Below, in pieces: positions 35,681-39,431 of a stretch of 50,252 nt of DNA (within the stretch, counting starts at the first letter, position 1; the number at the start of each line of letters is the position of its first letter). Made by a program: the position numbers and the translations under genes. The notes under the pieces were generated by a model. That model was not told the origin of the DNA and searched no databases. It saw only the letters and a list, made by a program, of their open reading frames with translations. This stretch comes from Luteibacter yeojuensis (GTDB lineage Bacteria > Pseudomonadota > Gammaproteobacteria > Xanthomonadales > Rhodanobacteraceae). Location: assembly GCF_000964085.1 (NCBI RefSeq), contig NZ_JZRB01000044.1:1-50252 (forward strand), read 5' to 3'.

Positions 35681-36187
35681 ATGCCCGAGAAGAAAACCGC
35701 AGCCAAAGCCGCCACCGCCAGGCGCCAAGGCAAGTCAGCCTCCACGCAAGCCGGCGAATACGTGCATGAGGAGATCAAGCACATCCGCGCGGGTAAGCAT
35801 GGTGCCCGGTCGGCCAAGCAGGCCATCGCCATCGGCCTGTCGAAAGCACGGCGTGACGGGGTGAAGGCCACGCCATCGAAGACTGCCAGCAAGGCCACAA
35901 AGAAGAAGGCGGCCCAGGATACGAAGGCGGCGAAGAACCGTTCTGCTGGGACGGCCACCAAGAAATCGGCGACGCGGAAACGCGCCAGCACGAAGGCACT
36001 TAAGCGCGAGGGTACAGCTGCGGCTTCGAAGCGCGCACTTTCGACCCAAGCCAGGAAGAGTGCTGCCAAGCGAACGTCAGCAAGCAAGTCGGCGGCGGCG
36101 AAGAAGGCGGCCAGGACGAAGGGCGCCACGGTTCGCAAGACGGCTGCCAAGAAGGCCGCGCGCACCCGCGCGAAAAAAGCTTCCTAG
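35681..36187 (+). CDS. DUF6496 / histone H1-like Lys-Ala-rich protein
   Basis: A 168-aa, extremely basic protein. Residues about 25-62 hold the DUF6496-like core GKHGARSAKQAIAIGLSKAR. The rest is a disordered Lys/Ala/Thr-rich tail resembling eukaryotic histone H1 and bacterial H1-like proteins, so non-specific nucleic-acid compaction is plausible. A strong GAGGAGG ribosome site sets the ATG. It faces away from the 47-aa peptide gene and converges with the PA14-like gene. The repetitive K/A tail could vary in length between strains. Confidence 0.85.
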   Translation: MPEKKTAAKAATARRQGKSASTQAGEYVHEEIKHIRAGKHGARSAKQAIAIGLSKARRDGVKATPSKTASKATKKKAAQDTKAAKNRSAGTATKKSATRKRASTKALKREGTAAASKRALSTQARKSAAKRTSASKSAAAKKAARTKGATVRKTAAKKAARTRAKKAS

Positions 36188-36207: not shown

Positions 36208-37356
36208 TCAATGGTGCACCATCGCCATGCCGCCGACGCGCGGCGCGCCGGTGCTGGCTGCCTGCGCATCACTCAGCACCAACGAGAAAAACATCACCTG
36301 CGCCCCGTTATACAACTTGAACAACACCCGATGCCGCCCCGCGGCAAGCCGAAGCCGCACCTTGCCTTCGCTCAAATTGTAATCAGCAATCTCGCGCCGC
36401 ATCGAACGGGCATCCACCATGAACCACGGCTTCACCGGCGCGCCGCCCTTCCACACCAGCTCATCATCCACCCACAGCTTCGCGTCGTCGTCCGCGCCGA
36501 TCCAGGCCCACAGTTCCATGTCGCGGTCGAGCCTTAGTTCGGTATACCCGTAGTAGATAGCACTTTCTGCCGGGTCGGGCAGGAACAGCGGGTATTCGCT
36601 TGCCTGGACGTAGCGCCATGTCAGCGTGCCGAACTTGCCTGCGTAGGTTCCATCCAGATCGACGGCTACTTCGGGCAGTTCCGGATGATCTAGGGGATGG
36701 TCGCCGACGGCCTCGAACGGCCCCACCACGTACCACGTGTCGACATACAGGCGGTTGGTATACGCACCACCGGCGCCTGCGCTGCGGCCTGCTGCAGCGT
36801 GGACTGGTGCGTCGAGGGGCGGGATCTTGGAGAAGCGACCGTGTGGAACGATGTCTGCGCCATGGTTGCCGGCGGTGGCCACCTCAAAGGGAGTCAGGCT
36901 CGTGTCCCCCGCCATGCCGAGTAACCGGGGGCCTCCGGGGCCGCTCTTGCCTGCCGCCCCGGCCGTCGACGCGCCAGCGGGTGAAGCCGCCTGTACATCA
37001 CGTGCCAGCGTCGCGGCGACCTGGGTTTTGAGTTGGGCCAGTTGCGCGAGGGCCTCGGTCTCCGTGTGCGGCATCTTCGGTAGCGCGGGCAGGTCGGCGT
37101 GTTTCTTTTTCAGCGCGTCGTAGCGCGCCCGTGCCTGCGCCAGTGCCGCTTGTGCCGATGAAGCGGGCTGAGGCGGTGGTGGCGCAACCTCATGCGAGTG
37201 CTGCGCGAGCGCGGCTTCGGCCGAAGCCAGGTCGTTCAGGCGTTGGGTCGCCGCGGACTGAAAGGCGGCGTTGCGGGTCGCCTCCACCCGCTTGCGTGCG
37301 GCTTCCGGCGAGGGCGGCAGTTGCGCGAGGTAAAACAACACACCCAGCACGAGCAC
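36208..37356 (-). CDS. TonB-like anchor with PA14-type C-terminal domain; 5' end interrupted
   Basis: Third gene of an exbB-exbD unit. From the GTG at 37356 it encodes 382 aa: a membrane-helix remainder (VLGVLFYLAQL), an Ala/Gln-rich helical linker (about 15-110), and a PA14-like beta-sandwich (about 200-370) with WIGADDDAKLWVDDELVW. Reading upstream in frame gives the rest of a membrane helix preceded by S-I-L-A-H, the S-x3-H motif by which TonB contacts ExbB. Further up is an ATG (37443) one base after the exbD stop. An amber TAG (37426-37428) interrupts that frame, and no standard start lies between TAG and 37356. Either the gene is broken, the amber is misread or suppressed, or a truncated form is made. 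Ligand unknown; PA14 domains often bind carbohydrate. Confidence 0.75.
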   Translation of the reverse strand: MLVLGVLFYLAQLPPSPEAARKRVEATRNAAFQSAATQRLNDLASAEAALAQHSHEVAPPPPQPASSAQAALAQARARYDALKKKHADLPALPKMPHTETEALAQLAQLKTQVAATLARDVQAASPAGASTAGAAGKSGPGGPRLLGMAGDTSLTPFEVATAGNHGADIVPHGRFSKIPPLDAPVHAAAGRSAGAGGAYTNRLYVDTWYVVGPFEAVGDHPLDHPELPEVAVDLDGTYAGKFGTLTWRYVQASEYPLFLPDPAESAIYYGYTELRLDRDMELWAWIGADDDAKLWVDDELVWKGGAPVKPWFMVDARSMRREIADYNLSEGKVRLRLAAGRHRVLFKLYNGAQVMFFSLVLSDAQAASTGAPRVGGMAMVHH

Positions 37357-37444
37357 ATGCGCCAGGATGGACCAAAGCGCATCACGCCCCGGGTTGTCAT
37401 TCCGGGCGGGGCGGTACGGATCCCACTACGATCGCGTGGCCATG

Positions 37445-37867
37445 TCAGTTCCGGACGTGGACCGCGAGGTTGGTGAGCCCTTCGAACGCGCACATGTCCA
37501 TGACGCTCACCACGTCCTGAAACTGGGCGCGGCGGTCGCCGTCGATGCGGATGACCGTGTGCGTGTCGTGGGCAGCCAGGTCGTGGAGGCGGTCTTTGAG
37601 CTGTCCCTTCGTTATCGCGGCACCGTCGACGTAGATGGTGCCATCGCGCGCCACGGTGATGAGTACGCCTGTCGAAGAGGCCTCTTCGGGGCGAAAGGTC
37701 GCCGCCGCCTTGGGAAGGTCGACCGGGATGGATCGATTGTGCTGCTTGTCTTCGCTCTGCTTGAAGGTGGTCGCCACCATGAAGAACATCAGCAGGAAGA
37801 AAATGCAGTCGATCAACGCTACCAGCCCGATCTCCGGCTCCTGGTCTTCGCCCAGGTCGATCTTCAC
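37445..37867 (-). CDS. exbD: ExbD/TolR family biopolymer transporter
   Basis: A 140-aa inner-membrane proton-channel partner. It has a short cytoplasmic N-terminus, one membrane helix with the essential aspartate (ALIDCIFFLLMFFMV, Asp about 20) and a periplasmic TolR/ExbD domain (about 60-138). The start is GTG overlapping the exbB stop (GTGA), so the two are coupled. ExbD with ExbB turns proton flow into motion of a TonB-type protein. Here the third gene is not a normal tonB, so the usual assignment to iron uptake is not assured. Confidence 0.88.
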   Translation of the reverse strand: MKIDLGEDQEPEIGLVALIDCIFFLLMFFMVATTFKQSEDKQHNRSIPVDLPKAAATFRPEEASSTGVLITVARDGTIYVDGAAITKGQLKDRLHDLAAHDTHTVIRIDGDRRAQFQDVVSVMDMCAFEGLTNLAVHVRN

Positions 37868-38583
37868 GGCGTTACGCCAGCCGGTGCGGGGACGAAGTGG
37901 GCGCGCAAGAGGGCGCCCGCTTGCCGTTCCAGCTCAAGGCCGAACGCGGTGATGCGGTATTTGAAGCCGTGGTAGAAGGCCAACGCCGGAAGGGCCACGG
38001 AGAGGCCGGCGGCCGTGTTGACCAGCGCCTTGGAGATGCCACTCGCGAGCAACGCCGGATCGATCGGGCCATTCAACGCAAGCGCATGGAAGGCTTCGAT
38101 CATGCCTGCCACGGTGCCCAGCAGGCCAACGATCGGCGCAACGGTCGCGATGATCGCCAGGGGATAGATGCGGCGCAGGTGTTCGCGAAGCTCGATGGAG
38201 GCGATGTCTTCGACGCCCTTGGTCACGGTCACCAGGTCGAGCGCGCGGTAGGCCAGCATGTAATGCAGCATGCGTGAGAGCGTGCTCGGCTGGCTATCGA
38301 CCAGCGCCTGGGCCTGGTCCGTCCTGCCTTCCTGCCACAAGACATCGGCCCTGCGCGCCAGCCCCTCGGGGACCACGAACGCCTTGCGGACGTTGCGTAG
38401 CCGCTCGATCGCCACCCAAAGCGCGATCACCGACATCGCAAGCAGCACCACGAGGGCTACGCCGCCTTCCCTCAACTGGCCTACGCCATCGAAGCCCTGC
38501 GCATGGACGGGTGAAATCGGGGACAACGCCATCGCAACAGTAACAATCAAATCAACAAGCCTGGCCCGGGGACTACGTTTCAT
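37864..38583 (-). CDS. exbB: ExbB/TolQ/MotA family proton channel
   Basis: A 239-aa inner-membrane protein. It has a cleavable or anchoring N-terminal hydrophobic segment (about 10-29), a first channel helix (GGVALVVLLAMSVIALWVAI, about 40-60) and a cytoplasmic loop. The conserved pair follows: PLAIIATVAPIVGLLGTVAGM (about 133) and LVNTAAGLSVALPALAFYHG (about 180). These carry the family's A-P-x-x-G-L-x-G-T-V and T-A-x-G-L-x-x-A-x-P motifs. The ATG at 38583 has GAAGG upstream; ATG at 38607, behind GTAGGAGC, is a good alternative. It heads the exbB-exbD-PA14 unit, with a palindrome at its promoter. Confidence 0.9.
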   Translation of the reverse strand: MKRSPRARLVDLIVTVAMALSPISPVHAQGFDGVGQLREGGVALVVLLAMSVIALWVAIERLRNVRKAFVVPEGLARRADVLWQEGRTDQAQALVDSQPSTLSRMLHYMLAYRALDLVTVTKGVEDIASIELREHLRRIYPLAIIATVAPIVGLLGTVAGMIEAFHALALNGPIDPALLASGISKALVNTAAGLSVALPALAFYHGFKYRITAFGLELERQAGALLRAHFVPAPAGVTP

Positions 38584-38876: not shown

Positions 38877-39431
38877 ATGAAAGATGATCTTTATCGCCAT
38901 GCCAGGACGGCACGTACCGTCGAGCGATGGACACGCATCGCCATGCTCGCCGTTGTCGTCGTTGCCGCGCTCGCAGCCACGCTGTGCCACGAAGCGGAAC
39001 TTGGACGCTCCTTCGCGAGAAGCATTCTCCAGGCGGCTTCTTTCATTCCGGCGCGAAGGTGGGCCTTGTATGCGAGCTACGGGGACGAGGCCGCCATCTA
39101 TTACTTCTTCGTCTTCCCTATCTTGCCCCTTGCTGCGACATGGATGCTCGCGCGCCATGGCTTTCCGCTTCCCGCGAAATTGCAGCAGGTGCGTGGCATC
39201 TTTTTAGCCATTCAAACCGTCATTGCGGTGCCGTTACTGGCGTTCGTTGGCCTCATCATCCTCATTGGCGAGCATGGCTCTGATATGCGCGGGTTGAAGG
39301 TCGGGACGCAATTTGGCCACCTCATATTCTTTGGATGGGTGAGTTTCGCGGCGGCCGGCGCGGCTTTTGGGCTTTGCGGCTTATATCTCCTCGCCGCCCT
39401 TGGAGCGATGAAGCGAGCCTCCCGAGAATAA
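38877..39431 (+). CDS. Hypothetical membrane protein (184 aa)
   Basis: Not recognised. Four hydrophobic segments (about 20-36, 73-92, 107-132, 150-176) predict a polytopic inner-membrane protein with a basic cytoplasmic N-terminus (MKDDLYRHARTARTVERW). It has a 35-residue extracytoplasmic loop after the first helix. The ribosome site is weak (GGACGG). It lies between the decayed duplicate and the lipoprotein gene, both on the same strand, suggesting the duplicated segment once flanked it. Confidence 0.7.
   Translation: MKDDLYRHARTARTVERWTRIAMLAVVVVAALAATLCHEAELGRSFARSILQAASFIPARRWALYASYGDEAAIYYFFVFPILPLAATWMLARHGFPLPAKLQQVRGIFLAIQTVIAVPLLAFVGLIILIGEHGSDMRGLKVGTQFGHLIFFGWVSFAAAGAAFGLCGLYLLAALGAMKRASRE

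Follow-up and report, generated by a model that had tools for sequence, protein, structure and literature searches.

An exbB-exbD operon of Luteibacter and its predicted TonB/TolA-like transducer with a PA14-like C-terminal domain

Introduction

In the Ton system (TonB-ExbB-ExbD), it is the C-terminal fold of TonB that makes contact with receptors. The E. coli Ton structure, in the part of PMC12215075 cited here, places TonB Ser16 and His20 in contact with ExbB Ser34 and Trp38, and sections of PMC10907165 and PMC12204202 describe a beta-strand after the helix, the motor box or D-box, in transducers of the TonB/TolA type. Transducers with an SHLS helix and a vWA tip, lying beside motor genes, were reported by Williams-Jones et al. 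2025 (PMC12204202, main text), so that the joining of a foreign tip to a TonB-like anchor is already in print. The current study concerns a window of 50,252 nucleotides (the whole stretch of DNA analysed) from Luteibacter yeojuensis, in which a first-pass annotation, made from the sequence alone, had proposed an ExbB-ExbD motor served by a TonB-style anchor with a PA14-like domain in place of the TonB C-terminus.

Results

The exbB and exbD genes and the third gene of the window all lie on the minus strand (Table 1), and the three-gene unit is genuine. The tight spacing noted in the first-pass annotation was correct, as the exbB stop and the exbD start share GTGA, and exbD ends in TGA-C-ATG, followed by the third frame. 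The interval given there for the whole trio, 36208-37867, was too short, as exbB lies outside it and reaches 38583 from its ATG (an inferred start). The product of exbB matches Pfam MotA_ExbB (E about 4.9e-25 to 7e-25) and that of exbD matches Pfam ExbD (E 2.6e-25). The motor residues expected of such proteins are present in the operon ExbDs and ExbBs. Asp20 of ExbD lies within IDCIFFLLM, and both the Asp and this motif were found in 28/28 operon ExbDs, while the Thr residues of ExbB TM2 and TM3 (GLLGTV and Asn/Cys-Thr-Ala) were present in the five operon ExbBs inspected.

Table 1. Positions of the operon genes and of features of the third gene in the window.
Feature	Position	Strand	Remarks
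exbB	37864..38583	minus	239 aa from ATG (start inferred); signal-peptide-like N-terminus, then ExbB core
exbD	37445..37867	minus	140 aa; GTG start overlapping exbB stop
Third gene (transducer frame)	36208..37443	minus	Broken by TAG at codon 6; open in three relatives
In-frame TAG, codon 6 of third gene	37426..37428	minus
Transmembrane helix with Ser-x3-His	37321..37377 (limits approximate)	minus	Ser codon 37369-37371, His codon 37357-37359
Periplasmic Ala/Gln/Gly-rich linker	36769..37320	minus	About 188 residues, partly helical
Predicted C-terminal PA14/GH2-like jelly roll with Asp-Asp motif	36262..36768	minus	Structure model and Foldseek

Far from occurring mostly without exbBD, homologues of the third gene adjoin it in 28 of 30 loci when the window is included, these loci coming from the window's genus and from a remote group within its class. 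Of the 29 fetched stretches (27 genomes), 27 have exbB and exbD immediately ahead of the third gene. In one of the other two, from genome G929, the third gene stands alone; in the other, from G1056, it is an additional copy in a genome that also has a full operon. Both genomes carry an operon-type exbD elsewhere. In G929 an open third gene (L051, C1:1838430-1839935) lies far from the operon-type exbBD of that genome, which is found at C1:675642-676206 (L112, L126) and has behind it just 38 residues that match the end of the third domain. Tandem third genes were seen in six of the 29 stretches (L087, L096, L097, L098, L099 and L103, the first copy being broken in L103), and in these loci two different transducers may share one motor.

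An operon-type ExbD (236-301 bits) was detected in 4 of 61 genomes, the next best among the matches listed having 56.8 bits, and these four genomes are the same four that hold the third gene among 149 relatives. In phylogenetic trees, which contain long branches and for which paralogues were taken from the window's relatives and its own genome, not from the group of G929, a branch with support 100/98 divided the 28 operon ExbDs from 29 paralogues. The 28 operon ExbBs were likewise set apart from 28 paralogues, with a weaker split (support 90/97). ExbB paralogues L043 and L005 and ExbD paralogues L047 and L032 were left out by length, as was L006, the window's own duplicate; L003 and L007 of the same genome are absent (no ExbB match). 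As both operon proteins separate from the paralogues compared, the ExbBD motor looks, on this sequence evidence, dedicated to the third protein.

The first-pass annotation had read an S-x3-H sequence in the third protein as a TonB-style anchor motif, and this reading was supported. Ser and His are invariant in 34/34 aligned third proteins, and no other helix residue is. The alignment holds 34 of 37 rows, those left out for broken frames being two pieces of L101 and the first copy of L103; in both of these loci the third-gene frames are in pieces, with frame changes inside the gene. Leu occupies Ser+11 in 29/34 and Gly or Ala occupies Ser+15 in 30/34, and the fourth residue of the SHLS motif is Ser in 0/34. 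The longer motif S-x3-H-x6-[LVM]-x3-[SGA] was found in a hydrophobic N-terminal segment of 28/34 third proteins and in none of 423 controls, which were the other predicted genes of the same 30 loci (153 of them with a membrane-like N-terminal segment). S-x3-H alone in such a segment was found in 32/34 third proteins and 7/423 controls, all seven of the latter being the operon's own exbB. By sequence, the anchor helix appears to carry the TonB/TolA SHLS motif with another residue in place of the final Ser.

On the motor side, Ser at the place of ExbB Ser34 is present in 28/28 operon ExbBs, but also in 25/28 paralogues. Trp at Ser+4, the place of Trp38, was found in 0/28 operon ExbBs and 2/28 paralogues, and its absence is not special to the operon, since 26/28 paralogues also lack it. 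No strand follows the helix in the full-length model of the third protein, a poor model with pLDDT 50.5.

The linker is 187-287 residues long across the 34 aligned proteins, is rich in Ala, Gly, Arg, Glu and Gln, and is at least partly helical in the low-confidence full-length model. That model, the first to be built, was made from four close sequences and was too poor to rely on.

A separate model of the C-terminal domain (about 167 residues), made from 34 sequences, had a mean pLDDT of 77.5 and a pTM of 0.78; values for its first 29 residues fall below 50, and each later block of ten has an average of at least 71. Foldseek comparison with the PDB gave 75 matches at E <=0.001, and the best 50 of the 75 are mostly beta-glucuronidases and beta-galactosidases. 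The GH3-type enzymes 3ac0 and 7pjj, which we take to carry PA14 domains, stand at ranks 27 and 43 of the PDB matches listed. The TM-scores by query of these PDB matches are 0.37-0.48, which is similarity at the fold level only, the matched part of the chains not being given. Among the 50 matches listed from predicted viral proteins, 12 were named PA14 and three GLEYA adhesin.

Sequence comparison gave much less. No Pfam PA14 (PF07691) or other convincing Pfam match was found in the C-terminal domain of any of the 34 members (E up to 0.1), and searches of Pfam, NCBIfam and PDB sequences yielded nothing usable for the third protein. The best PDB sequence match, a lipocalin at E 0.01, was dropped, because the lipocalin fold is a barrel, which does not fit the predicted fold. 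A profile search against ten PA14 domains from related genomes reached at best E 0.077 (1.6 bits). In hhalign against four PA14 domains the match was weak (16 columns, probability 3.6), and it aligned the strand-loop GADDDAKLWVDDELVW with a true PA14 domain at the Asp-Asp. In that weak alignment the consecutive Asp pair is Asp in 30/34 and 34/34 members at its two places. In lectin-type PA14 domains, according to part of PMC8092209, such a pair (DcisD) binds calcium and sugar.

The PA14-like beta-sandwich of the first-pass annotation thus stands as a fold, on structure prediction and Foldseek, and the predicted structure is a PA14/GH2-like jelly roll; it does not stand in Pfam, and its support in sequence is weak and confined to a local motif. 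The PA14 claim is made at the fold level and sugar binding is something that we infer from it; glycan binding by the PA14-like tip is plausible. The proposed combination of ExbB-ExbD with a TonB-style anchor bearing a non-TonB, PA14-like domain was supported; the TonB_C model, like the TolA C-terminal Pfam model, had no match in 34/34 third proteins (E 0.1).

A search of 149 relatives found the third gene in 4, and a search of 233 genomes found it in 4 of the 23 listed genomes of the window's genus, counts from which weak linker matches in G209 (21.2 bits) and G055 (19.1 bits) were left out. In a class-wide sample of 369 genomes the single carrier was the window's own genome. Narrow sequence searches found the family in the window's genus only, and it was widened by profile searches with the C-terminal domain, which spanned the window's phylum and were followed by a search among relatives of G929. 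A phylum sample gave 2/398 matches, the second being G929, from another family of the same class. Relatives of G929 carried the gene in 25/199 cases (24 strong, and G1124 doubtful at 20.3 bits), and the order of G929 in 2/270. In a second phylum sample (3/309 matches) the third was a LamG/PA14 protein of G718, whose 21.4-bit match overlaps a Pfam PA14 domain; G1124 and G718 were left out of the counts. A search for plasmid-borne homologues using the window's C-terminal domain gave no match. The family is patchy and occurs in two distant lineages of the same class.

For the window itself, the third product had been read from the ATG at 37443 with S-I-L-A-H in its helix. SILAH is indeed in frame; the TAG at codon 6, which was overlooked, ends that product. 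The next ordinary in-frame start after the TAG is a GTG at 37356, immediately past the His codon, so that its product would lack Ser-x3-His, and by ordinary rules the window copy cannot yield the anchor, contradicting the claim that it makes one. In three genomes of the window's genus the frame is open from the equivalent ATG.

The sequence after the stop is 85, 84 and 75% identical to that of three relatives, with dN/dS values of 0.10, 0.12 and 0.17 for the window copy. Within the C-terminal domain the window copy has dN/dS of 0.040 and 0.049 to two relatives, and across three pairs (0.034-0.049) this domain is under strong purifying selection; rows comparing it with L054 were discarded because they had been read in a wrong frame. 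Such conservation and selection indicate that the break is recent, is bypassed, or is an error of the 144-contig draft. Barring read-through of the TAG or an assembly error, an intact transducer is probably not made in this genome. That the window copy is a dying gene or an assembly error, with no role here, is an evenly balanced proposition. It is favored by the TAG and by the lack of any other ordinary in-frame start ahead of the anchor motif, and opposed by the undecayed sequence beyond the stop, from which a break, if real, would be recent or bypassed. This explanation is compatible with the one preferred below for the family.

Discussion

The operon is likely to encode a dedicated proton-driven ExbBD motor together with its own TonB/TolA-like force transducer carrying a PA14-like tip. 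The basis, from sequence and prediction, is the gene linkage, the anchor motif, the motor residues, the jelly-roll fold and the lack of a TonB or TolA C-terminal match. Like TonB and TolA, the third protein would be seated at the ExbB edge by its Ser-x3-His-x6-Leu helix, and its long Ala/Gln/Gly-rich linker would span the periplasm and end in the PA14-like jelly roll. As protons pass through ExbBD the linker would be pulled or twisted, tugging a partner held by the jelly roll. This partner would most likely belong to the envelope, either as a glycan or as a protein that carries or mimics a glycan, and would not be the TonB box of a receptor. Points against a force transducer are the missing Trp at the ExbB Trp38 place, the missing fourth Ser of SHLS, the lack of a motor-box strand in the poor full-length model, the stop codon of the window copy, the weaker ExbB split in trees with long branches and the lack of a conserved partner gene.

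Thirty neighbour proteins from 13 of the 30 loci were scanned and had no shared function. The flanking genes vary between loci, except in one syntenic group in the genus of G929, and neither the compared flanks nor these neighbours included a conserved partner gene or a fixed functional neighbour. The operon looks like a self-contained cassette.

Several frames near the operon were recorded in passing. In the window, a Lys/Ala-rich histone-H1-like frame (35681-36187, plus) closely follows the end of the third gene and runs in the opposite direction, and a 184-residue frame without a Pfam match at E 0.01 is divergent from exbB (38877-39428, plus). Two predicted proteins upstream of the operon, L087:2008-4002 (plus, 665 aa) and L105:4469-6004 (plus, 512 aa), also had no Pfam match at E 0.01. 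A search of four proteins with PADLOC for Zorya or another defence system gave no match at E 0.01.

It is rather unlikely that the operon is instead a TolA/Pal-like machine working through protein-protein contacts in envelope integrity or division, with a jelly roll that does not bind sugar. The long Ala-rich linker (187-287 residues, with helices in the poor model) would suit such a machine, the window protein is weakly TolA-like (E 0.014; NCBIfam tolA 14.7 bits, below the cut-off of 59.45), and sequence comparison with PA14 domains of related genomes found nothing significant. The 34 members nevertheless have no TolA C-terminal Pfam match, no TolB or Pal was named among the 30 neighbours from 13/30 loci, and the patchy presence of the gene, in 4/23 listed genomes of the window's genus, speaks against housekeeping.

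It is improbable that the operon forms a Ton system with an unusual tip, whose jelly roll would dock on TonB-dependent receptors and power the uptake of a glycan or another substrate. This reading is kept alive by a TonB-dependent receptor gene directly behind the third gene in L106 (4955-7273, minus; about 30 bp downstream, same strand), and receptors lie near the third gene in L105 and L102 as well. Receptors nevertheless account for only 3/30 neighbours in 3/13 loci, loci that group together in the ExbB and ExbD trees; none of the three window neighbours scanned is a receptor, and none of the 34 third proteins matches TonB_C.

Very improbable is a sensor, in which an envelope ligand would be detected by the jelly roll and a signal, in place of outward force, would pass inward through ExbBD and the helix: the pairing of a proton-channel motor with a ligand-type domain, a histidine kinase upstream in L106 and frames near the window operon that are presumably an NtrB/NtrC-like pair would fit it, but no conserved regulatory neighbour was seen (30 neighbours, 13/30 loci), and the Ser-x3-His anchor and the ExbD Asp are those of force-generating systems.

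Returning to the force transducer with a PA14-like tip, a bolder version is possible, if doubtful, in which a lectin tip on the transducer would let ExbBD pull glycans (exopolysaccharide, LPS or peptidoglycan strands), the whole being encoded by a self-contained three- or four-gene cassette that moves between distant proteobacterial genera. If true, a glycan-pulling ExbBD would be an undescribed class of proton-driven envelope machine. The PA14-like tip enlarges the set of C-terminal domains known from transducers of the TonB/TolA type. The Ser-x3-His helix is suggested to be an interchangeable foot, and ExbBD could drive jobs beyond receptor opening or Tol-Pal. Because intact members exist, the motif is clean and the domain is expected to be soluble alone, what such motors pull can be tested directly.

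Comparison with known systems

The operon shares with the Ton system the ExbB-ExbD motor, a single N-terminal S-x3-H-x6-L helix, a periplasmic linker and a globular C-terminal domain. It differs in that the third protein has no TonB_C match, the linker is rich in Ala, Gln and Gly, and the fourth motif residue is mostly Gly or Ala; the operon ExbBs, like most paralogues, also lack Trp at the Trp38 place, and no fixed receptor partner was found. With Tol-Pal (TolA-TolQ-TolR) it has in common the anchor principle, as given in parts of PMC10907165 and PMC12204202, and a partly helical Ala-rich linker, while the lack of a TolA C-terminal match, of TolB or Pal among the scanned neighbours, and of an even distribution sets it apart.

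Members of the PA14 family (PF07691), e.g. the lectin MpPA14 as described in part of PMC8092209, share the jelly roll and an Asp pair before a hairpin (LWV-D-D-x-LV). Unlike them, the 34 third proteins have no Pfam match, and their top-ranked PDB matches listed are beta-glucuronidases and beta-galactosidases.

In the open full-text literature, a scope outside which most subscription papers and preprints fall, no PA14-tipped transducer was found, as judged for the papers listed by title and opening of the abstract. ExbB, ExbD and a PA14 domain were mentioned together in full text in work that is, by its title, on Rhodothermus GH3 enzymes, and PA14 does not appear in the main text of a survey of MotAB relatives (PMC12505986). 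The words PA14, jelly, Luteibacter, Massilia and Xanthomonad are likewise absent from the main text of PMC12204202.

The closest likeness in plan is to the vWA-tipped SHLS transducers of that paper, which, by its main text, have the same TolA/TonB-like topology, SHLS-type helix and adjacent motor genes, and likewise end in a fold unrelated to that of TonB or TolA. The tip of the third protein differs in being a predicted PA14/GH2-like jelly roll and not a vWA fold. The concept itself is not new, and a PA14-like tip on an ExbBD-linked transducer adds to the published vWA type.
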